Shown here in pieces: positions 31,958 to 44,676 of a DNA stretch of 64,000 nt. The number at the start of each line of letters is the position of its first letter. Position 1 is the first letter of the stretch. Made by a program: the position numbers and the translations under genes. The stretch comes from Pontibacterium sinense. GTDB lineage: Bacteria; Pseudomonadota; Gammaproteobacteria; Pseudomonadales; Balneatricaceae. The DNA is taken from NCBI RefSeq assembly GCF_015209595.1, contig NZ_JADEYS010000014.1, positions 1-64,000 of the forward strand, written 5' to 3'. A model generated the notes under the pieces. That model made no database searches, was not told the DNA's origin, and saw nothing but the letters and a program-made list of their open reading frames with translations.

Positions 31958-33532
31958 TTAAACCTCGGTCTTCAGGCCTTTGTAGATGCTGACACACATC
32001 AGCAACAGGATTGCCGTGAATGGCAGACCCGTTGTAATCGCACCGGCCTGTAATGCGGTCAGTGCTTCTGAGCCACCGCCGTACAACAGTACACCTGCGA
32101 TAACACCCTGCAATACTGCCCAGAAGATACGCTGTGGTACTGGCGCATCCACTTTACCGCCTGCGGTGATCGAGTCGATAACTAATGAGCCGGAGTCAGA
32201 TGAGGTGATAAAGAATACCAACACCAGGATGATCGCCATAGCAGAAGTGATCTCTGCCATTGGCAGGTTTTCCAGCATCTGGAACATCGCCAGCGATACA
32301 TCACCCAAACCACCCGCCAGCTGACCGACGTTGTTCTGAATCTGATCCAGCGCCTGCGCACCAAATGCCGCCATCCAGACAGAAGACACCAAAGTAGGGA
32401 TCAACAATACAGCGATCATAAATTCACGCACGGTACGGCCACGGGATACACGGGCGATAAACATACCCACGAATGGAGACCAGGATACCCACCACGCCCA
32501 GTAGAAAACGGTCCAGCCTTTGTAGAACTTCTCGTCTTCACGATCAATCCAGTTACTCAGCTGGAAAATATTCTCCGCGTAGCTGCCGACAGTGCTGAAC
32601 CAGTTACCAAAGAACGCGCCCAAAGAACCCGCCAGAATCACGAACAGCATCAGTGCCCCCGCGATACCCATGTTCAGGTTACTTAGCAGTTTTACACCGC
32701 CATCCAACCCACGAACCACAGAGAAGATCGCAATCGCAGAGACAACAACGATGATCGCCACCTGAGTAGAGATGTTGTTCTCGATACCAAACAGGAAGTT
32801 CAGACCACCACCCGCCTGTGAAGCCCCCAGACCCAGAGATGTAGCCAGACCAAAGATGGTCGCCAGTACAGCAACGATATCGATGATGTGACCCGTTGGC
32901 CCCCAAACACGCTCACCAAACAATGGGTAAAACGCAGAACGGATCGTCAGCGGCAAGCCTTTGTTATAGGTGAAGAAGCCCAGTGCCAGTGCAACGACAC
33001 CGTAGATTGCCCATGGGTGCAAGCCCCAATGGAACATCGTAGCGCCCATGGCAGCAGACGCACCTTCCGGTGTTTTCGCTTCAGCATTCAGCGGTGTGCC
33101 CCACCAATCGGTGTAGTACGCAACGGGCTCAGCCACACTCCAGAACATCAGACCGATACCCATGCCTGCGGCAAACAGCATTGAGAACCAGGACATACGG
33201 CTAAAATCAGGTTTTGCACTCGCGCCGCCCAGACGAACCTTGCCGACAGGCAGAATGATCAAAGCCAAACAGAAGAGGACAAATACGTTTCCAGCGATCA
33301 TAAACAACCAATCGAAGGTCTCGATTGACCAGGTACGTGCGCCTACCAGCATCTCTTTTGCATCAGCCGGGAACAGCAAGGCCAGTACAATAAAGGTCAG
33401 GATCGCCAATGCACTTGTGGTGAATACGGGGTTATGGACGTCCATCCCCATCACCTGCACGTTGTCCTGTCCCGCCTTATAGTCGGAGGTATACTCCGCC
33501 GACTTAGGACGGTCTTTCACACTTTGGTTCAT
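31958..33532 (-). CDS. BCCT-family glycine betaine/choline/carnitine transporter
   Basis: A 524-residue inner-membrane protein with 12 predicted helices. The family signature lies around residues 355-385 (YKGWTVFYWAWWVSWSPFVG, then MFIARVSRGRT); the glycine-rich helix GMGIGLMFWSVAEP (about 122-135) forms the substrate/Na site in BetP. The N-terminal tail is short, as in catabolic rather than osmosensing carriers. It probably imports glycine betaine or a related quaternary amine using a sodium or proton gradient. GGAG precedes the ATG. It stands in a single-gene unit with a long 5' region holding two CGACA boxes 30 bp apart, and lies just upstream of the dgc operon end. The exact ligand is not settled by sequence. 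Confidence 0.93.
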   Translation of the reverse strand: MNQSVKDRPKSAEYTSDYKAGQDNVQVMGMDVHNPVFTTSALAILTFIVLALLFPADAKEMLVGARTWSIETFDWLFMIAGNVFVLFCLALIILPVGKVRLGGASAKPDFSRMSWFSMLFAAGMGIGLMFWSVAEPVAYYTDWWGTPLNAEAKTPEGASAAMGATMFHWGLHPWAIYGVVALALGFFTYNKGLPLTIRSAFYPLFGERVWGPTGHIIDIVAVLATIFGLATSLGLGASQAGGGLNFLFGIENNISTQVAIIVVVSAIAIFSVVRGLDGGVKLLSNLNMGIAGALMLFVILAGSLGAFFGNWFSTVGSYAENIFQLSNWIDREDEKFYKGWTVFYWAWWVSWSPFVGMFIARVSRGRTVREFMIAVLLIPTLVSSVWMAAFGAQALDQIQNNVGQLAGGLGDVSLAMFQMLENLPMAEITSAMAIILVLVFFITSSDSGSLVIDSITAGGKVDAPVPQRIFWAVLQGVIAGVLLYGGGSEALTALQAGAITTGLPFTAILLLMCVSIYKGLKTEV

Positions 33533-35018: not shown

Positions 35019-35831
35019 TCAGCTAATGACCTTTTCTTCCAACAGAAGATCAAAAATCTCGCGTGCCTGCTCTGCAGCGGGCATGTCTTTGAGCACTTTA
35101 CCGGACTCACCTTGTGGTTTTGCGGTCGCCGCTTTGAATCGCTCAGCCGCTGTTTTTGCCTTAACCACTTTCAGACGTTTAGGTCGTGGTTTCGCTTTTG
35201 CTTCCACCCAATCACTACGCGTCTGGTCATCCTCAATCACAGCATCAAGCGATTCAACCTGCGCACGGCGACCCGGACCATATGCAGACTGACGCGCTTC
35301 CGGCGCAGCATTATCAATGGTCGCCACAAAAGGCAGAGGGACTTTTAACGCTCGACGTTGACCGCGCGGCAGTGCTAACAACAGCTCAGCGACACCGTTT
35401 TCAACCGACACGATATCAGCCACACGTGCCACCACCGGCCAGTTGAGTTTCTCAGCCAACAGATATGGCACCATACCTGATGACTCGCCACTTTCTGCAC
35501 GCACACCGGTCAGTACGATGTCCGGGCGATGATCCTGCAAGTATTCGACCAGTGCGGGCACAGCATCAGCACGGGGACCGAGGTCCAGCACCTGCACTTC
35601 GGACAACCCCATACCCGCATAGGAACGTAAGGCCTGCTGCAACGGGTCACCCGCATGCAGCACCGTATGTTTCTCTGCCAGATTCATACCCAGCTCCACC
35701 GCGCGACCATCTTGTTCGGCGCGGCGTACACGACCTGACTGCGGGTGCTGACCGATGGAAATCAACGATACGATATCTAGTGAACGATCCAACGAATGAT
35801 CCTGCACTTGGCGTTTACCTTCAGGCTGCAT
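35019..35831 (-). CDS. etfB: electron transfer flavoprotein beta subunit (dimethylglycine pathway)
   Basis: A 270-residue ETF-beta-like protein (residues about 20-190: RAVELGMNLAEKHTVLHAG, QVLDLGPRADAVPALVEYLQ, GVRAESGESSGMVPYLLAEK and RALKVPLPFVATI). The tail of about 80 residues is basic, Lys/Ala-rich and longer than in housekeeping EtfB. It forms a dimer with EtfA, taking electrons from the dimethylglycine dehydrogenase and passing them towards quinone. The start at 35831 overlaps the end of etfA by 11 bp, with GAGGGGATC upstream, so it is translationally coupled. It is the last gene of the operon and matches PA5401 in position. Confidence 0.9.
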   Translation of the reverse strand: MQPEGKRQVQDHSLDRSLDIVSLISIGQHPQSGRVRRAEQDGRAVELGMNLAEKHTVLHAGDPLQQALRSYAGMGLSEVQVLDLGPRADAVPALVEYLQDHRPDIVLTGVRAESGESSGMVPYLLAEKLNWPVVARVADIVSVENGVAELLLALPRGQRRALKVPLPFVATIDNAAPEARQSAYGPGRRAQVESLDAVIEDDQTRSDWVEAKAKPRPKRLKVVKAKTAAERFKAATAKPQGESGKVLKDMPAAEQAREIFDLLLEEKVIS

Positions 35832-37083
35832 GCTGATCCCCCTCTTCACTTTGTTTTGCACGATGCTCCTGCGCCAGTTTCAGCAGTTCAGCCAGAATCT
35901 CTTCGCTGTCACCAATGGCACTCAATGCGGCACGTTTCACCATGTCACACCCGGCATCGGTATTGATGGCGATCACCTTGTCGCACTGGCCAATCCCCTG
36001 CATGTGCTGAATCGCACCGGAGATACCTACGGCCAGATACACACGCGCAGTTACCCAGGTGCCGGTAGCGCCGACCTGACGGAAACGTGGCATAAAGCCA
36101 TCATCCACCGCCACACGGCTGGCCCCTTCGGTGGCGCCCAGCGCAGTCGCCGTATCGTGGAACTGATCCCAGTTATGGATACCGTTGCCCGCCGACAAAA
36201 TAAACTCCGCTTCGGCCAGTGGAATTGCATTTGGATCAACCGCCACCTGTCCCTGATCCTGCAGCTGAGCAATGGCACGCGGTATAGATTCCAGTGCCAG
36301 TGGCTGCGCTTCATGACGGGTTTCGTCGATGGGATCAGCACACTCCTCTACCAGCATCAGGATATGTGGTGTCGTGCGGCTGATATCAATACTGCCCGAC
36401 GCACCGCGACTGACCGTGGTTTCGTGATCCACCTGCCACGCCTGTACGGCTGGACGTTCGCCCAATCGTGCCGCCAGACGCGCACCGAGGTCTGCCCCCC
36501 CATTCACGCTGTCCGGGAATAACCAGTGCTTTGGCTGGTAGCTGGCTTCGATCTGCACCAAGGCAGCCAACTGCTGTTCAGGACAGAACCCCTGATACTC
36601 TTCACTATCCAGCAGAATCAGACGATCCACACCGGCGGTGTCGAACCCTTCCTCTTTGCTTTCACCAAAGCAGACAGCAACCACAGCCCCTTGCTGTTCA
36701 TTGCCGCCTTCAATTCCACGCGCCAGCTTGTGTGCCTGACCAAGAATGTCTTTGTCCTGACTGGTCAGACGACCGCCCACCATATCCGGTACAACAACAA
36801 TGTAGAAATCAGGCTGCTCAACACTGTGTAACGGCAGTAATACTTCCTGAGGACCGCTGCTGCGGCGTCCCATCGCGACGGTGTTTCCATTCCCTTTCAG
36901 GCGATCAATACGTTTAATGCCGTTCGGGCCAATAAATCCAACCTTATGCGGATTCTTACGCAGCAGACCGGATGGACCACGGACTTCGGCTTCATCACCC
37001 ACGCTGACCGTGCCGTGTAGCGGATGCAATCGGTTACGGGCGATCCACTCGGCGCGGGGATCTCGTCTTAGCACATCACTCAT
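35821..37083 (-). CDS. etfA: electron transfer flavoprotein alpha subunit (dimethylglycine pathway)
   Basis: A 420-residue ETF-alpha. The C-terminal FAD domain has the expected motifs (EAEFILSAGNGIHNWDQFHD, SRVAVDDGFMPRFRQVGATG, ARVYLAVGISGAIQHMQGI, KVIAINTDAGCDMVKRA). The protein is about 100 residues longer at the N-terminus than housekeeping EtfA, with a basic segment (DPRAEWIARNRLHPLHG), as in the betaine-cluster homologue PA5400. It accepts electrons from the DgcA/DgcB system. Its ATG overlaps the dgcB stop (TGATG at 37081-37085) and its stop overlaps the etfB start, so the three genes are tightly coupled. Confidence 0.92.
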   Translation of the reverse strand: MSDVLRRDPRAEWIARNRLHPLHGTVSVGDEAEVRGPSGLLRKNPHKVGFIGPNGIKRIDRLKGNGNTVAMGRRSSGPQEVLLPLHSVEQPDFYIVVVPDMVGGRLTSQDKDILGQAHKLARGIEGGNEQQGAVVAVCFGESKEEGFDTAGVDRLILLDSEEYQGFCPEQQLAALVQIEASYQPKHWLFPDSVNGGADLGARLAARLGERPAVQAWQVDHETTVSRGASGSIDISRTTPHILMLVEECADPIDETRHEAQPLALESIPRAIAQLQDQGQVAVDPNAIPLAEAEFILSAGNGIHNWDQFHDTATALGATEGASRVAVDDGFMPRFRQVGATGTWVTARVYLAVGISGAIQHMQGIGQCDKVIAINTDAGCDMVKRAALSAIGDSEEILAELLKLAQEHRAKQSEEGDQHAA

Positions 37084-39008
37084 CAGTGGACCTCCTCGAT
37101 CAGCTGATCGACCAGAATCTCGGCAATGTCTTTCACTTCCGGACGGGGTTCGACTACGCCTTCCAGCATCGCCGTACACTGCTGACAACCAACGGCCACC
37201 AGCTCCGCACCGGTGCTATTCACATCTTCCATGCGCATATCTGCGATACGGCGTTCACCTGGAATATCCGTGATCGGTGCACCACCGCCGCCACCGCAAC
37301 AGCGTGAACGGAAACCGGAGCGCTCCATTTCGGCGACTTCAATGCCCAACGAACGCAGCAACTCACGCGGCGCTTCATATTCGCCGTTGTATCGTCCCAG
37401 ATAACACGGATCGTGATAGGTCACGGTACCGCCGCTAAAGGCTTCTAGTTTCAGCGCACCGCTCTGTACCAACTGATTCAGGAACGTGGTGTGGTGTAAC
37501 ACGTCTACCCCTTCCAGCGCATCGCTACCAAAATCACCGTATTCGTTCCGCAGGCAATGGTAAGCATGCGGGTCGGTGGTCACGATGGTCTTGAATGAGT
37601 ATTGAGACAGAATTTCCAGATTGCGTTTAGCCAGGCTCTGGAACGCAGCATCATCCCCCAGACGACGGGCCACATCACCGCTATCCAGCTCTTCATCACC
37701 CAGAATAGCCACATCCACATTCGCCGCTTTCATCAGCTTAACGAACGCACGCAGGATACGCTGACTGCGCATATCAAACGCACCATCAGAGACCCAGAAC
37801 AGTACATCGGCTTGCTTTACATCGCTCATCAACGGCAGGTTCTGATCCGCCGCCCAGTTCACACGGCTGGCCGGTGAATACCCGTTCGGATTATCCGTGG
37901 CGATGATGTTATCCAGCACTTCTGCGCCTTTGTTGGGCGTATCACCCTTTTCCATGGTCAGGAAACGACGCATATCCACAATCGCATCCACATGCTCGAT
38001 CATCATCGGGCACTCTTCCACACAAGCACGGCAGGTGGTGCAGGACCAAAGCGTTTCAGGATCAACCAGACCGTTAGTGATGATCTGATCCGGACCGCCT
38101 TTCGCGTTACCAACGTCTTTACCCGGATAAGGAGAACCCGCGTATTTGGCATCGGTACCACCGGCCAGACCCACGACCATATCCTGAATCAGTTTTTTCG
38201 GGTTCAACGGCTGACCCGCAGCAAACGCAGGACACATCGCTTCACACTTACCGCATTGCACGCAGGCATCAAAACCCAGCAGTTGGTTCCACTTAAAGTC
38301 TTTGGGTTTAGAGACACCCAGAATATCCAGCGTCTGACCGTTCTGAGTCAGATCAACCGGTTTCAGACCGGTAGACCGGCCGCCGCCAAAACGTTCCTGA
38401 CGGCGATGGAACGCCAGATGCAGGGCACCCGCAAACGCGTGCTTCATCGGCCCGCCCCAGGTCATGCCAAACAGCATCTCGCCAAGTCCCAGCAGGATCA
38501 CAGCACTGAGGATCAACGTCAGCACCCAACCGCCGGTACCTTCCGGCAAAATACCGGCTGCAGGCAGGGTCAGGATGATAAAGGCAGAGGAAAATGCCAG
38601 TAGGCTTTTTGGCAGACGCATCCACGCGCCTTTTGAGATCCGGCTTGGCGGGTCCATACGACGTTTAAGGACAAAGATCGCCCCGACAAACATCAACGCC
38701 AGCGCAAACAACAGCGCCCACGCCAGAATCTGGCTATCAATACCCGCCAGATGCACCAGCAGGATCAGCGCGATAGAAAGGACAAAACCACCACCGGTTG
38801 CGGCGTGCGTTTTGGACATGTATTTGTCACGTTCAACCACATCGTGCAGGTCATGCAGATAACGCTTGGGCATCGCCATCAAACCGGCGATCAGATCAAC
38901 CTGATCTGGCTGGCCCGCACGCCATAAACTGATGCGGCGGACAGCACCGACCACCGCCAGCAACAGCGTGGCAGCGATCAAAACGGAAGGTAACCAATCG
39001 AGAACCAT
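37083..39008 (-). CDS. dgcB: dimethylglycine catabolism iron-sulfur protein DgcB
   Basis: A 641-residue membrane-bound iron-sulfur protein with N-terminal membrane helices (about 5-25, 70-110, 135-185), then two 4Fe-4S motifs (CVQCGKCEAMCP near 250 and CTTCRACVEECP near 325) and C-terminal CCG/heterodisulfide-reductase-type cysteines (DPCYLGRYN, SRCCGGGGGAP, GCQQC). Family knowledge: DgcB with DgcA converts dimethylglycine to sarcosine, and the iron-sulfur chain links to the adjacent ETF and the quinone pool. It is separated from dgcA by 97 bp containing two hairpins and overlaps etfA by one base. The length fits PA5399. Confidence 0.94.
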   Translation of the reverse strand: MVLDWLPSVLIAATLLLAVVGAVRRISLWRAGQPDQVDLIAGLMAMPKRYLHDLHDVVERDKYMSKTHAATGGGFVLSIALILLVHLAGIDSQILAWALLFALALMFVGAIFVLKRRMDPPSRISKGAWMRLPKSLLAFSSAFIILTLPAAGILPEGTGGWVLTLILSAVILLGLGEMLFGMTWGGPMKHAFAGALHLAFHRRQERFGGGRSTGLKPVDLTQNGQTLDILGVSKPKDFKWNQLLGFDACVQCGKCEAMCPAFAAGQPLNPKKLIQDMVVGLAGGTDAKYAGSPYPGKDVGNAKGGPDQIITNGLVDPETLWSCTTCRACVEECPMMIEHVDAIVDMRRFLTMEKGDTPNKGAEVLDNIIATDNPNGYSPASRVNWAADQNLPLMSDVKQADVLFWVSDGAFDMRSQRILRAFVKLMKAANVDVAILGDEELDSGDVARRLGDDAAFQSLAKRNLEILSQYSFKTIVTTDPHAYHCLRNEYGDFGSDALEGVDVLHHTTFLNQLVQSGALKLEAFSGGTVTYHDPCYLGRYNGEYEAPRELLRSLGIEVAEMERSGFRSRCCGGGGGAPITDIPGERRIADMRMEDVNSTGAELVAVGCQQCTAMLEGVVEPRPEVKDIAEILVDQLIEEVH

Positions 39009-39034
39009 TTTTCACCCTCATAGAGCAGGTGTAC

Positions 39035-39097
39035 GGGCAGTGAGCCTGCCCTGTTATTTTTGAAAGGCCCGTCACCCCCAAGGTTCGGCGTGACGGG
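39035..39097 (-). terminator. two intercistronic hairpins between dgcA and dgcB
   Basis: Hairpin 1: CCCGTCAC (39068-39075) with GTGACGGG (39090-39097). Hairpin 2: GGGCAG (39035-39040) with CTGCCC (39046-39051). On the minus strand the first is followed by a pyrimidine-rich stretch without a clean T-run, so these look like RNA-processing or attenuation stems rather than a full stop; dgcB still needs to be expressed. Confidence 0.5.
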
Positions 39098-39105
39098 GTA
39101 GCGCC

Positions 39106-41169
39106 TTACAAGTCTTTACACAGACGCAATGCGTCGTACATCGCAGCATGGGTGTTGCGCTGGGATACACAGTCACCCAAACGCCACAGGATCATGCCAT
39201 CGCCGGATTCTGAGAGCACAGGCTGTGGTTTGATATCGAACAATGCGTCGTTGTCGATCTGCCCCTTGTTGCGGGACTCCTCTTTCAAGGCGTAGTACAG
39301 CTCTTCGTTTGGACGAGTTCCGTTCTCAACCACCACCTGATCAACCACACGCTCTTCACGCTGGCCGGTGTATTCGTTCTCAAGCACAGCTACCAGACTG
39401 TCACCTTCGCGATACACTTTCTCCAGCAGGAAGTCAGAGGTCATGATCACCTCTTTCTCATACAGAGAACGGTAGTACGTTGGGAAGGTCGTTCCGCCGA
39501 TGCCAACACCCGGCTTGATATCGTCAGTCACCAACTCAACCAGCGAGCCTTTTGACGCCAGATAATCGGCTGCAGACATACCAGAGAATTCACAGATGGT
39601 GTCGTAGATCAGCACGTTTTTGCCCGGCTCAACTTTGCCGCTGAGAATATCCCAGCTGGAGACCACTAAGCCTTCCTCTGCGCCCCATTCCGGGTTCTGA
39701 TCGATAAACGGACGACCACCGGTGGCGATCACACACACATCCGGTTTCAGTTCGCGTACCAACTCCGCATCCGCAGCGGTACCCAGACGGATATCAACAC
39801 CCAAACGCTCAAGCTCCATCACCAGCCAACGGGTGATACCTGCGATCTGGTCGCGCTGCGGTGCTTTGGACGCCAAGGTAATCTGACCACCCAGCTCTTC
39901 CGCTTTTTCGATCAGCGTGACGTTATGACCGCGCTCTGCGGCAACACGTGCTGACTCCAATCCGCCCGGCCCACCGCCAACAACGACAACTTTACGTACG
40001 TTACCGCTGGTTTTTTCTATGATGTGTGGCAAGCCCATGTATTCACGGGAGGTCGCAGCGTTCTGGATACAGAGCACGTCCAGTCCCTGATACTGACGGT
40101 CGATACAGTAGTTTGCACCCACGCACTGACGGATCTGATCCACCTGATCCATTTTGATCTTGGCGATCAGATGCGGATCAGCGATGTGCGCACGGGTCAT
40201 ACCGACGAAGTCTACGTAACCGGCTTCAACGATACGCTTCGCCTGGTTAGGATCTTTGATGTTCTGCGCATGAATGACAGGAACATCCACCACCTCTTTG
40301 ATACCAGCCGCCAGATGCAGAAACGGCTCAGGTGGGTAGCTCATGTTCGGAATAACGTTTGCCAGGGTGTTGTGCGTGTCACAACCGGAGCCAACAACAC
40401 CGAAGTAATCAATTTCGCCTGTCGCGTTGTAGTACGCGGCGATCTCTTTCATGTCGTCGTGGTTGAGGCCATCCGGGTGGAATTCGTCACCGGTAATACG
40501 CAAGCCAACACAGAAATCACGGCCCACCTCTTCGCGTACCGCTTTCAGCACTTCCATACCAAAGCGCATACGGTTTTCGAAGGTACCACCCCATTTATCG
40601 GTGCGTTTGTTTACACGTGGCGACCAGAACTGGTCGATCATGTGCTGGTGTACCGCTGATAGTTCAACACCGTCCAGACCACCCTCTTTCGCACGGCGAG
40701 CCGCTTGCGCGAAATCACCAATCACGCGCCAGATCTCTTCCTCTTCGATGGTCTTACAGGTCGCGCGGTGAACCGGCTCACGGATACCGGATGGTGACAT
40801 CAGGTTCGGCCAGTTTTCACCGTCCCAACGGGAACGACGGCCCATATGGGTAATCTGAATCATGATCTTGCCGCCGTGCTTATGCACCGCATCGGCCAGA
40901 TTCTGAAAGTGTGGAATGATCCGATCCGTCGACAGGTTGACGGAACTCCACCAGCTTTGCGGGCTGTCGATAGACACCACACTGGAACCACCACAGATGC
41001 AAAGACCACAACCGCCTTTGGCTTTCTCTTCGTAGTACTTCACGTAGCGATCAGTGGTCATACCGCCATCGGTGGCATACACCTCAGCGTGAGCGGTGCT
41101 GACAATACGGTTACGAATCGTCAGCTTGTTAATCTTGAGTGGCTCAAACAGCACATCAAACTGGGACAT
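39106..41169 (-). CDS. dgcA: dimethylglycine demethylase/dehydrogenase DgcA
   Basis: A 687-residue protein of the trimethylamine-dehydrogenase/2,4-dienoyl-CoA-reductase type: an FMN-binding old-yellow-enzyme barrel (about 1-345), an iron-sulfur linker (about 345-372), then FAD/NAD-type Rossmann domains (VVVVGGGPGGLESARVAAER, about 394-413). It removes a methyl group from dimethylglycine, producing sarcosine, with DgcB and ETF as electron acceptors. The linker has cysteines at 349, 355 and 367 but alanine at 352, where the canonical CxxCxxC motif would have its second cysteine. Its order in the operon and length match PA5398. Confidence 0.94.
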   Translation of the reverse strand: MSQFDVLFEPLKINKLTIRNRIVSTAHAEVYATDGGMTTDRYVKYYEEKAKGGCGLCICGGSSVVSIDSPQSWWSSVNLSTDRIIPHFQNLADAVHKHGGKIMIQITHMGRRSRWDGENWPNLMSPSGIREPVHRATCKTIEEEEIWRVIGDFAQAARRAKEGGLDGVELSAVHQHMIDQFWSPRVNKRTDKWGGTFENRMRFGMEVLKAVREEVGRDFCVGLRITGDEFHPDGLNHDDMKEIAAYYNATGEIDYFGVVGSGCDTHNTLANVIPNMSYPPEPFLHLAAGIKEVVDVPVIHAQNIKDPNQAKRIVEAGYVDFVGMTRAHIADPHLIAKIKMDQVDQIRQCVGANYCIDRQYQGLDVLCIQNAATSREYMGLPHIIEKTSGNVRKVVVVGGGPGGLESARVAAERGHNVTLIEKAEELGGQITLASKAPQRDQIAGITRWLVMELERLGVDIRLGTAADAELVRELKPDVCVIATGGRPFIDQNPEWGAEEGLVVSSWDILSGKVEPGKNVLIYDTICEFSGMSAADYLASKGSLVELVTDDIKPGVGIGGTTFPTYYRSLYEKEVIMTSDFLLEKVYREGDSLVAVLENEYTGQREERVVDQVVVENGTRPNEELYYALKEESRNKGQIDNDALFDIKPQPVLSESGDGMILWRLGDCVSQRNTHAAMYDALRLCKDL

Positions 41170-41302
41170 GGAAACACCCCGATCTCTTCTCTGGACGAGT
41201 CAACTTGAAGCAACCACGCTATAAGCCTTTCTCGTACCTTTATATTTATTTTTTTGAAGCCCGAAGGCCTCTGCTCTTGTCTAAATCGTGCATAAAAGGT
41301 GA

Positions 41303-41359
41303 CTGAAAGCGTTATGAGCGCCGGCAGGAAACCGCCCTGCCAAGCGCAATAGCTTTCAG
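41303..41359 (-). terminator. long intercistronic hairpin upstream of dgcA
   Basis: A nested stem: CTGAAAGC (41303-41310)/GCTTTCAG (41352-41359), GCGC (41318-41321)/GCGC (41344-41347), GGCAGG (41323-41328)/CCTGCC (41336-41341). It starts 7 bp after the DUF5943 stop and is followed on the minus strand by a short TTTT. It probably attenuates read-through into dgcA or protects the upstream mRNA. Confidence 0.6.
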
Positions 41360-41365
41360 CAGCTT

Positions 41366-41896
41366 TTACAGTGGGGTGACTTCGAAATAACCCACCTCAC
41401 AACCTTCTTCCGCCGCACACTGAGTCTGTTCCGCTTTAGTACGCACGTCGTAACCCAAACTTTCAGCGATCTGATCTAGTGCACCAGCAAACCAACCGGT
41501 GAACATGTAATCGACTTTGCGGTTAACCTGACCGTACTGGTACACAAATGCGGAGTTTTCCAGACGCACTTTCGCAGTCCCTTTTTCCAGATCCAGCTCT
41601 TCCGTGATGAAGAAACCCCAACCGCGCTGAGACAGACGTTTCATGTAGTGATGCCAGATATCCTCACCCTTGATACCGTGCTCTGCCGCTTCTTTCTCAC
41701 ACCAGTAGTGCGCAGATTTATAACCCGCTTTGTACAGAATCTCGGCGTAACGCTCGGCACCGATCTCCTCTTCAATACCCATGTGGTTGTTAACGAAGAA
41801 GTGACGCGGCACGTACAGCATTGGCAATGCATCTGTTGTCCATACACCGGTTTCGTCGTCTACGTTGATTGGCATTTCTGGCGTGTGTACACCCAT
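41366..41896 (-). CDS. DUF5943 / 4-vinyl-reductase-domain protein of the betaine cluster
   Basis: A 176-residue soluble protein with a 4VR-like fold (YAEILYKAGYKSAHYWCEKE, WGFFITEELDLEKGTAKVRL, MFTGWFAGALDQIAESLG) ending in a cysteine-containing segment (QCAAEEGCEVGYFEV) that may bind a metal. It is the homologue of PA5397, always found between the dipeptidase-like gene and dgcA. Its role in dimethylglycine breakdown is not established; 4VR domains bind small hydrophobic ligands or porphyrin precursors elsewhere. GAGGTAG precedes the ATG. Confidence 0.85.
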   Translation of the reverse strand: MGVHTPEMPINVDDETGVWTTDALPMLYVPRHFFVNNHMGIEEEIGAERYAEILYKAGYKSAHYWCEKEAAEHGIKGEDIWHHYMKRLSQRGWGFFITEELDLEKGTAKVRLENSAFVYQYGQVNRKVDYMFTGWFAGALDQIAESLGYDVRTKAEQTQCAAEEGCEVGYFEVTPL

Positions 41897-42058
41897 TTTT
41901 TTCTACCTCAAATTCAATTCTTTATGCGTGCACCCGGGTCGCTATTGATGATTTACAGCGGGTGTCACGTTAGGAGTAACAAGGCACAAGTTGCCGAGGA
42001 GCCCAATCGCCCGGCAACTCATGCCCCGTCACAAACAGGGTTCAGGGAGTGGGTTGGC

Positions 42059-43036
42059 TTATTCGCCCCAGACGTCTTTCAGCAGGTTGACCCAGTTATC
42101 GCCCATAATTTTGCGCACCTGTGTTTCAGAGAAACCGTTGCGCAACAAAGCTTCGGTCAGGTTCGGGAACTCACCGACCGTACGGATGCCTTTAGGATTG
42201 ATGATCTCGCCAAAGCGGGTCAGGCGACGTGCGTAGCCCTTATCGTGAGTCAGGTATTCGAAGAAATCCTGACCGTGACCTTGCGTAAAGTCAGTACCGA
42301 TACCGATCGCATCTTCACCCACGATGTTGTAGATGTACTGGATCGCTTCGACGTAGTCGTCAACCGTGGCATTCACACCCGCACGCAGGAATGGGGTAAA
42401 CATTGTCACGCCGACAAAACCGCCGTTGTCCGCGATGTACTTCAGTTCTTCATCGCTGCGGTTACGTGGATGTTCTTTCAGACCCGATGGCAGGCAGTGA
42501 GAATAGGCCACCGGTTTTTTGGATTCGTCGATCACTTCTTTTGCGGTTTGTGGGCCAACGTGAGACAGGTCACATAACATACCCACTTCATTCATTTCCG
42601 CCACAATCTCGCGACCGAAACCGGACAAACCACCGTCACGCTCGTAGCAGCCGGTGCCGACCAGGTTCTGGGTGTTGTAGCACATCTGCACAATGCCCAC
42701 GCCCAGATCTTTAAACACTTTGACGTAGCCGATCTGATCTTCAAACGCATGCGCATTCTGAAAACCCATCATCACACCGGTCTTACCTGCTTCTTTCGCA
42801 CGATAGATGTCACGGGTGGTACGGACTTTCATCAGCAGGTCACTGCTCTCTTCAATCAGCTGATTCATCTCAACGATGTTATCAACCGTACCCTGAAAAT
42901 TTTCCCAGAAGGACACCGTGCAGTTCGCAGCGGTCAATCCACCCTTGCTCATATCTTCAAACAGTTCGCGATTCCACTTCGCGCAGATCAGACCATCGAT
43001 CACGATGGAGTCATTGTGCAGATCGGCTGCGTTCAT
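42059..43036 (-). CDS. membrane-dipeptidase-family protein with altered metal site
   Basis: A 325-residue protein of the renal dipeptidase (peptidase M19) family, corresponding to PA5396 of the Pseudomonas betaine cluster. DLSHVG (H159), YSHCLPSGLKEHPRN (H180) and IGTDFTQGHG are kept, but the N-terminal DGHND metal motif reads DGLIC (14-18) and the bridging glutamate position reads GFQNAH (Q93). Two of the usual zinc-ligand sites are therefore lost, so classical dipeptidase activity is doubtful. It is the first gene of the operon; AAGGATAA precedes the ATG, and paired CGACCC boxes lie upstream. The true substrate is unknown. Confidence 0.87.
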   Translation of the reverse strand: MNAADLHNDSIVIDGLICAKWNRELFEDMSKGGLTAANCTVSFWENFQGTVDNIVEMNQLIEESSDLLMKVRTTRDIYRAKEAGKTGVMMGFQNAHAFEDQIGYVKVFKDLGVGIVQMCYNTQNLVGTGCYERDGGLSGFGREIVAEMNEVGMLCDLSHVGPQTAKEVIDESKKPVAYSHCLPSGLKEHPRNRSDEELKYIADNGGFVGVTMFTPFLRAGVNATVDDYVEAIQYIYNIVGEDAIGIGTDFTQGHGQDFFEYLTHDKGYARRLTRFGEIINPKGIRTVGEFPNLTEALLRNGFSETQVRKIMGDNWVNLLKDVWGE

Positions 43037-43371
43037 TGTTGTTATCCTTTTTCGTTACCAACTGACTAAACGGGTTTCTGTCTCGTTTCTTCTTTCAACG
43101 GAAGAACGAGAAGTGGGAAAGATGGCTCACTTCCCAGAGTTCATTCAGTGTAATTTTTCGTAAAAATTGGTAAGAGGCTGGAAACGACCCGCTGATTACT
43201 AAAACCGACCCACTGACGAATCAATGACCATCTGGCGAGCGGGAAAGTGAAGGAATAAGGCTGCAACAGGGAGATGATAAAGCGTGTCGCTATAGAGGGA
43301 CGCAGATGATACAGAGGAGATTCCGGCCATTGTAAGGGGTGAACTTGAACAATAGCCGGCTTATGACAAGT
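43037..43371. other. promoter region of the dgc operon and 3' flank of the HD-GYP gene
   Basis: 335 bp without a credible gene. It holds the promoter region of the dipeptidase-DUF5943-dgcAB-etfAB operon, including the CGACCC pair at 43183-43212. No clear terminator of the HD-GYP gene was seen. Confidence 0.55.
43183..43212. promoter_or_regulatory. paired CGACCC boxes upstream of the dgc operon
   Basis: AAACGACCC (43183-43191) and AAAACCGACCC (43202-43212) have cores 21 bp apart, two helical turns. The pair resembles the AAAACGACAC/AAAACCGACAC set before fdhA, including the extra C in the second copy. It lies about 150 bp before the first gene of the operon. A candidate GbdR-type operator. 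Confidence 0.55.
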
Positions 43372-44676
43372 CTAGATTTCTACGGTGACGGCACCTTCTT
43401 TAATCGCCAGAAGATACAGATCATCCCTGTGTTCTTTCAGCGTGCCATACACATCCTTGTCGAGCTGTCCGCCATCAGCCATCTTATCCATAATGCCCAA
43501 AACCTCTTCAACACTCAGACGGTCTCGATAAGGTCTTTTTTGGCACAACGCCTGAAAGATATCGGCAATACACAAAATGCGCGTCGGCAGATCGATCCGA
43601 TCACCTTCCCAGCCATACGGGTATCCGGAGCCATCCAGTTTTTCGTGATGTTCAGATGCCCACTTCGCAATCGGCGTATTGGGAAAGATAGCCTTCAATA
43701 CACGTCGACTATCCAAAGGATGGCTGCGCATCTGGGCCAGCTCTTCAGGTGTTAACGCACCCGGCTTTTCCAGTATTTCGTCGGGCGTTCTGAGCTTGCC
43801 AACGTCATGCAGCAACCCAGCAATACGTAGGATACGGCTGTGGTACTGATCGCAGCCCACCAATTCAGCAAGAGAATACGCCAGATCGGCAACCCTTAAA
43901 CTGTGATAGTGCGTAAACGGACTCTTGGCATCGACCACTTGTGAGATCAGCTCACCCAGCGACTCAATCTCACTAAAGCTCAATGAGATTTTGTAATCGC
44001 TGGATGCCAGCGTGTCGAAAATCGCATCATCCAGAAACTCTTCTCGCAACTCTAACCAAAAACTGTCTTTCAGTGCGGCTTGCTCCAGCGCCTCAAACAG
44101 TTGAGGACAAAACAGCGTACCGATATGTGGTCGCAATTCGTCCAGCAACTTGTCTCGCTGAAGCAACACCAGATGATGGGGATGGGTTTGAAGAAATGAG
44201 GCATAGATAACGTCTAATCGATCTGAAAGAAAAATCAGATTGGCATACTCACGCGTCGTTTGATCCAGCGACTCTGGCAGATGTTCCCACCGGGTATGGT
44301 GGTAGCGTACCGCTTCAGCGTAGCGACGAAATGGCGGGAAATTGCGCAGGAAGTAATCACCACGGATGCAATGCTGTTCAGCCCCATTCCACTCCAACTC
44401 ATCCGCAAGCTTTTTATGCACTGCAGTAGATGATACGCCACTGTCATGCAGCATGCCGGCCAACAAAATGTAGTGCCGTCTGTCGCGGTCCCACCCCATT
44501 AAGTGTGCGATACGATGGCAGATTAAACCCACCCGTCGTCCGTGACTTCTATCGTCAATTCCAACGTAATCTAAGGCTTGGGTAACGGTGTGCGCAGCAC
44601 GACCGACATCAACATCCATTCCTTGAAGCTCATCAGATGTGCTTATGTGTCCCGTATCCAGAGCCCTATCCTTCAT
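43372..44676 (-). CDS. HD-GYP domain protein (putative cyclic-di-GMP phosphodiesterase)
   Basis: A 434-residue soluble protein with two HD-type domains: an N-terminal one (about 40-200, with HGRRVGLICHR and LLAGMLHDSGV) and a C-terminal HD-GYP (about 245-425, with LLHDVGKLRTPDEI and the GYP motif in HHEKLDGSGYPYGWEG). The HD residues and GYP are intact, so cyclic-di-GMP hydrolysis is expected. The paired-domain layout is typical of a subgroup with a degenerate N-terminal HD. No sensor domain or membrane segment is seen. It lies upstream of, and on the same strand as, the dgc operon, separated from it by 335 bp. Confidence 0.9.
   Translation of the reverse strand: MKDRALDTGHISTSDELQGMDVDVGRAAHTVTQALDYVGIDDRSHGRRVGLICHRIAHLMGWDRDRRHYILLAGMLHDSGVSSTAVHKKLADELEWNGAEQHCIRGDYFLRNFPPFRRYAEAVRYHHTRWEHLPESLDQTTREYANLIFLSDRLDVIYASFLQTHPHHLVLLQRDKLLDELRPHIGTLFCPQLFEALEQAALKDSFWLELREEFLDDAIFDTLASSDYKISLSFSEIESLGELISQVVDAKSPFTHYHSLRVADLAYSLAELVGCDQYHSRILRIAGLLHDVGKLRTPDEILEKPGALTPEELAQMRSHPLDSRRVLKAIFPNTPIAKWASEHHEKLDGSGYPYGWEGDRIDLPTRILCIADIFQALCQKRPYRDRLSVEEVLGIMDKMADGGQLDKDVYGTLKEHRDDLYLLAIKEGAVTVEI

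Follow-up and report, generated by a model that had tools for sequence, protein, structure and literature searches.

The window, that is the whole stretch of 64,000 nucleotides of Pontibacterium sinense DNA analysed here, carries a run of genes on the minus strand in the order M19-like protein, DUF5943, DgcA, DgcB, ETF alpha, ETF beta and BCCT:

42059..43036, minus strand: M19-like protein of 325 aa, Gln-type (HxD and Glu lost), near PDB 2i5g
41366..41896, minus strand: DUF5943 protein of 176 aa with a sub-threshold V4R-like C-terminal part
39106..41169, minus strand: DgcA-type FMN/FAD oxidoreductase (OYE family)
37083..39008, minus strand: DgcB-type Fe-S protein (DUF3483, CCG, Fer4)
35821..37188, minus strand: electron transfer flavoprotein (ETF) alpha, start uncertain
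35019..35861, minus strand: second electron transfer flavoprotein subunit (ETF domain)
31958..33532, minus strand: BCCT betaine/carnitine/choline transporter

The presence of dgcA, dgcB and the ETF genes in one same-strand run identifies the locus as a dimethylglycine (dgc) operon. The ETF alpha ORF, as listed, shares 106 bases with the end of dgcB, and the gene therefore probably starts at a later, internal position. The V4R-like part of the DUF5943 protein was detected with an E value of 0.013 in the window and of 1.5e-5 in a Paracoccus relative, below the curated cut-off. The upstream neighbour on the same strand encodes an HD-domain protein (HD_5, two HD stretches; 43372-44676) and ends 335 bases from the M19-like gene. 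The same-strand order agrees with the preliminary description, in which the M19-like gene heads the dimethylglycine gene run, and from the gene order it would be the first gene transcribed. A consensus promoter scan of 38900-43450 gave no sigma-70 site; terminator-like sites in that interval numbered 9, against 4.1 expected.

The M19-like ORF starts with an ATG at 43036. Its product matches Pfam PF01244 (Peptidase_M19) over residues 7-320 with an E value of 1.2e-89 and 301.1 bits, compared with a curated cut-off of 26, and is a full-length M19 protein; both this match and the M19 barrel fold place it in peptidase family M19. The active-site positions are occupied as follows:

42989..42991, minus strand: Leu16, replacing the His of HxD (110 of 110 close relatives)
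42983..42985, minus strand: Cys18, replacing the Asp of HxD (Ile in 71 and Cys in 39 of 110 close relatives)
42758..42760, minus strand: Gln93, replacing the bridging Glu (110 of 110 close relatives)
42677..42679, minus strand: Tyr120, replacing the active-site His (His in 19 of 20 canonical relatives)
42560..42562, minus strand: His159, second-metal ligand position, kept
42497..42499, minus strand: His180, second-metal ligand position, kept
42464..42466, minus strand: Arg191, kept
42290..42292, minus strand: Asp249, catalytic/ligand Asp, kept

The preliminary description had read the HxD motif as DGLIC and the bridging Glu as the Gln of GFQNAH, and the translation of the ORF bears this out exactly, with DGLIC at residues 14-18. 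Tyr120, which follows the strand 113-117 at the position of His152 in DPEP1, is a fourth change that was absent from that count. The kept residues lie in the motifs DLSH (His159), YSHC (His180), HPRN (Arg191) and GTDF (Asp249), and Arg191 presumably binds the substrate carboxylate as the corresponding Arg does in DPEP1. Of the features of a classical two-metal dipeptidase, the protein therefore retains the His pair of the second metal together with the Arg and the Asp, and lacks the HxD motif, the bridging Glu and, after the third strand, the active-site His.

Relatives were collected from 80 loci on named genome contigs, from genomes of the same class, phylum and family, and from 10 plasmid-borne loci picked for variety of organism and annotation among the 40 matches listed (359 records in all). 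The 209 ORFs gave 180 distinct sequences of at least 250 aa, and alignment of these together with the 10 plasmid proteins gave a set of 190. Recruitment was by similarity to the window protein, and the canonical side is thin, with 20 sequences. Position 93 is Gln in 162 of the 190 sequences. None of these 162 Gln-type sequences has His at position 16 and only three have it at position 120, whereas His159, His180, Arg191 and Asp249 are kept in every one; Leu16, Gln93 and Tyr120 occur jointly in 153. Glu is found at position 93 in 26 sequences, namely the 20 canonical relatives, a set itself sorted by that Glu, and six with HxC or HxG in the place of HxD. The HxD motif was found by pattern in 17 of the 20 canonical sequences and was not resolved in the other three. 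The residue counts show that the first-site ligands change together and that the second site persists. The alignment against true dipeptidases proposed in the preliminary description sets 162 Gln-type sequences lacking the HxD His against 20 canonical ones with Glu, and the survival of the later histidines and the aspartate, which had been noted for the window protein, proves general to the sampled branch.

The close relatives number 110 distinct sequences with 60-100% identity, in 21 clusters at 90%. All of them share Leu16, Gln93, His159, His180, Arg191 and Asp249, and their codons vary at invariant sites, with five Leu codons at position 16 and both Gln codons at position 93. Chance is ruled out by this constancy of the key residues while the codons vary. 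Recent decay or a sequencing error was likewise rejected, as the state is common to the 110 close relatives and to 2i5g. In 48 Gln-type rows, a hand-picked subset, the invariant columns include Leu16, Gln93, Gln117, Tyr120, Asn121, His159, His180, Arg191 and Asp249. Invariant residues with varied codons form the pattern of a rebuilt pocket and not of decay, the first metal site being replaced throughout the sampled Gln-type branch by a largely constant Leu/Gln/Tyr-Asn set.

A tree was built from 95 of the 180 sequences: 25 drawn from the 110 close relatives, plus every one of the other 70. It is of a quick type with long branches and can be trusted only for the gross split. The Gln label requires 3 changes on it compared with a mean of 24.3 after shuffling, a clustering unlike the scatter that decay would give. 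The window protein belongs to a group of 26 sequences, supported at 97, whose sister group has 25 members, and the two are joined with a support of 100. Position 18, variable among the close relatives, is Tyr in 24 of 26 sister-group sequences. The six sequences with HxC or HxG plus Glu (L008, L010, L185, L186, L189 and L203) form an M19-like group with a DLEG/DIEG motif; they fall within the Gln-rich half of the tree, so that the order of Glu gain and loss cannot be set. L009 and L023, with His at position 93 and Glu at position 249 (HHHRE pattern), represent a further active-site variant. The Gln-type proteins are thus a large and deep, ancient branch of M19 in which the active site is rebuilt rather than lost; the fold and the family are known, and the branch is undescribed.

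The genomic partners of the gene were surveyed in 398 genomes of the phylum, with the close form defined by at least 60% identity and DgcA counted at 63% identity or more. The close M19 form was found in 30 genomes, DUF5943 in 31 and DgcA in 27. DUF5943 is present in all 30 close-form genomes, adjacent by coordinates in 29, and a single genome, G248, has DUF5943 without the close M19 form. All 27 genomes with DgcA carry the close M19 form; the three remaining close-form genomes (G460, G462 and G369) have M19 and DUF5943 without DgcA at this identity. At the 80 named loci the gene directly downstream of M19 is DUF5943 in 78 cases, and DgcA follows downstream in 77, the exceptions including L077, which ends 94 bases past the gene, and L042, which is without DgcA. 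Neither DUF5943 nor dgcA was found within 9 kb downstream of the M19-like gene in L075. The constant partner in the group of the window protein is consequently DUF5943, rather than DgcA.

Other arrangements were found in several genomes and on plasmids. In G460 the M19 gene is followed by DUF5943, SoxB (TIGR01373) and SoxA (TIGR01372); in G523 it lies by SoxA/SoxB, with DgcA and DUF5943 about 460 kb off on the same contig; and SoxB/SoxA adjoin the M19-like gene in L150 and L157. On plasmids, SoxBDAG precedes the M19-like gene in Azospirillum argentinense, the Sphaerotilus gene lies between glyA and DUF5943-dgcAB, and in Paracoccus kondratievae it occurs with DUF5943 and an MFS transporter. In Methylobacterium (plasmid) M19 is followed by DUF5943 and then by an opposite-strand gene scoring above the NCBIfam cut-off for N-methyltryptophan oxidase. 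Further plasmid loci have hydantoinase genes (L214), MFS transporter and 3-hydroxyacyl-CoA genes (L215), FAD oxidoreductases with ABC transporters (two loci) or an FAD oxidoreductase with a LysR gene (one locus) as neighbours. Downstream of a Gln-type M19 gene of Azospirillum brasilense (L216, 8005-11473) come genes for a DAO oxidoreductase and for the ethanolamine ammonia-lyase EutBC, and the neighbours in L158 and L159 have no clear link.

The neighbours mostly indicate catabolism of N-methyl amines and betaine. An exclusive tie to DgcA was considered and is rejected by G523, G462, G460, G369 and the plasmid loci. The preliminary description had proposed a helper of DgcA as one possible role; this proposal is weakened by the three close-form genomes out of 30 that have no DgcA of at least 63% identity, and by the Sox and other neighbours in G523 and on plasmids. 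Since the remaining close forms sit by sarcosine oxidase or other genes, the protein is not a helper of DgcA alone.

The Pontibacterium genome contains a second Gln-type copy (C52:20447-21418, locus L112 9427-10449) with 38% identity and the motif DGLQYSNW, flanked by an aldehyde dehydrogenase and a BCCT transporter. Also near this copy are a LysR gene, a DUF3726 protein and a 569-aa protein without any Pfam family. The latter recurs close to the gene in 23 of the 26 rows of sister type; L159 and two short loci make up the remaining three.

Classical two-metal dipeptidase function, which the preliminary description had called unlikely, is now very unlikely from the aligned residues, because the three ligand positions (His, Asp and Glu) and, as a fourth position, the active-site His were exchanged jointly, and the exchange holds across the 162 Gln-type relatives, with His at the fourth position in only three. 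For the whole branch, annotation as a dipeptidase is very probably a mistake. A job different from that of a dipeptidase, in a context of betaine-type demethylation, is probable because half of the metal site is replaced and the gene travels with betaine-demethylating enzymes. The kept His pair, Arg and Asp suggest either an enzyme with one metal or a pocket that binds a small carboxylate as ligand.

The explanation that we favour, with a confidence evenly balanced between belief and doubt, is a re-tooled cytosolic M19-fold enzyme that carries no more than one metal and has a small carboxylate as its substrate in the breakdown of N-methyl amines; a catalytic role in general we rate at about one half. 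Such a cytosolic enzyme (or ligand-binding protein) may hold its single metal by His159 and His180 with Gln93 and/or Asp249, and Arg191 would hold a small N-substituted compound of the glycine type by its carboxylate group. The predicted one-metal site fits the kept His pair and Asp. Its most likely job would be to process, together with DUF5943, a compound that N-demethylation leaves as a by-product or end product, such as an iminium/carbinolamine or a different N-C1 adduct derived from sarcosine or glycine. Several points count against this explanation. The kept residues could bind no metal at all, and Gln is a poor metal ligand compared with Glu. A conserved pocket would equally be expected of a sensor or a binding subunit. 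In addition, some relatives occur in places without clear N-methyl chemistry (L214, L215, L216, L158 and L159), and L075 has its partners missing from the downstream 9 kb.

The main competitor of the re-tooled enzyme is a non-catalytic partner that would act with DUF5943 in a complex with the demethylating flavoenzyme, as a scaffold, an assembly factor or a product channel. The constant pairing with DUF5943, the loss of the first metal site and the co-expression with dgcAB in Pseudomonas, where the M19-like gene is expressed with dgc, gbc and sox genes according to the accessible parts of PMC8079746 and PMC10963909, all speak for it. In these parts, Table 2 of PMC8079746 names 'Membrane dipeptidase, dgc operon' alongside dgcA and sox genes as changed in response to root exudates, and a table in PMC10963909 has the PP_0308 'dipeptidase' in its RoxR column. 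The same co-expression also counts in favour of the re-tooled enzyme. However, all 162 Gln-type sequences keep His159, His180, Arg191 and Asp249, most share the new invariant barrel set, and the pocket is kept despite neighbours as different as DgcAB, SoxBDAG and aldehyde dehydrogenase with BCCT. A scaffold needs no such pocket, and we consider this role rather unlikely. It is distinctly less probable that the protein is a sensor or binding protein with a regulatory role in the pathway, its ligand being dimethylglycine, sarcosine or another carboxylate. A conserved carboxylate-type Arg in a closed barrel would suit this role, as would the weak V4R-like part in DUF5943, V4R parts being known from sensor proteins, but the Pfam search revealed no DNA-binding or signalling domain beside the M19 domain, and in Pseudomonas the AraC-type GbdR is already the sensor (PMC12093977, as far as its accessible text goes).

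An ordinary dipeptidase with altered ligands, in which a binuclear site made from other residues would cleave N-methylated dipeptides, is the least probable of these alternatives and can be given little credence. It would explain the M19 fold, the family score and the kept second-metal His pair and Asp, but all three first-site positions now carry non-ligand or weak-ligand residues and the active-site His is Tyr. Moreover, no substitute ligand is conserved at position 18, because this position varies freely (Ile or Cys, and Tyr in the sister group). The re-tooled enzyme can also be extended to a bolder proposal, which we regard as unlikely: the Gln-type M19 proteins may be a new enzyme class whose pocket was rebuilt to hold one metal or none and which works with DUF5943 to resolve the reactive one-carbon product of unrelated demethylating flavoenzymes. 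This product might be an iminium, a carbinolamine or bound formaldehyde, arising from the removal of methyl groups from betaine-derived amino acids. If true, this would reveal a missing step shared by dimethylglycine and sarcosine breakdown.

For marine bacteria and pseudomonads, the breakdown of glycine betaine is an important route to carbon and nitrogen, and two conserved genes in the operon for it are annotated only as dipeptidase and hypothetical protein. The dipeptidase label should be dropped for the Gln-type branch. A solved structure of this branch, 2i5g, already exists without a function, and together with DUF5943 as the constant partner it makes the missing role directly testable.

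The gene order of the window is that of the dgc operon of Pseudomonas and Vibrio natriegens, pepD - hypothetical - dgcAB - fixAB (PMC12093977, PMC8079746). In the accessible text of PMC12093977, a predicted dipeptidase gene, pepD, and a hypothetical gene precede dgcAB in V. natriegens and P. aeruginosa, dgcA and gbcA are required for growth, and the terms 'M19' and 'DUF5943' do not occur. The accounts of pepD, in these parts of PMC12093977 and PMC8079746, keep the dipeptidase annotation and leave the lost ligands unmentioned. A word search of the accessible text of PMC3691474, PMC12442406, PMC7760384 and PMC7574528 gave nothing on the M19-like protein. We found no functional study of the protein in the open-access literature searched; a deletion phenotype may be in print in the original dgcAB and GbdR papers or in a review.

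Structural comparison relates the protein to better known systems. The model obtained from the 48-row alignment had a mean pLDDT of 96.0 (41.1 for the single-sequence model). Beyond M19, its next structural neighbours are dihydroorotase, NagA and phosphotriesterase, with Z of about 17. NagA is a distant fold match with 10-12% identity; the Escherichia coli enzyme uses the second-metal position alone and keeps a Glu ligand, where the window protein has Gln. The 16 listed M19 entries other than 2i5g gave Z of 37.5-41.4, with human DPEP1 (1itq), Streptomyces Sco3058 (3id7) and GliJ (5lwz) at 40-41. The window protein resembles the aligned canonical relatives among the M19 renal/membrane dipeptidases in its His pair, Arg and Asp, and differs from them in the replacement of HxD, the bridging Glu and the active-site His. 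Human DPEP3 (6vgo; Z 38.7), distantly related in sequence and likened here by fold only, also has the M19 fold and is reported to be without dipeptidase activity. By far the closest structure is 2i5g from P. aeruginosa, titled only 'amidohydrolase' and presumably encoded by locus PA5396, with Z 58.5, an rmsd of 0.5 and 78% identity over 325 residues. It has the same DGL and GFQNAH motifs, shows no essential difference from the window protein and belongs to the same subfamily.
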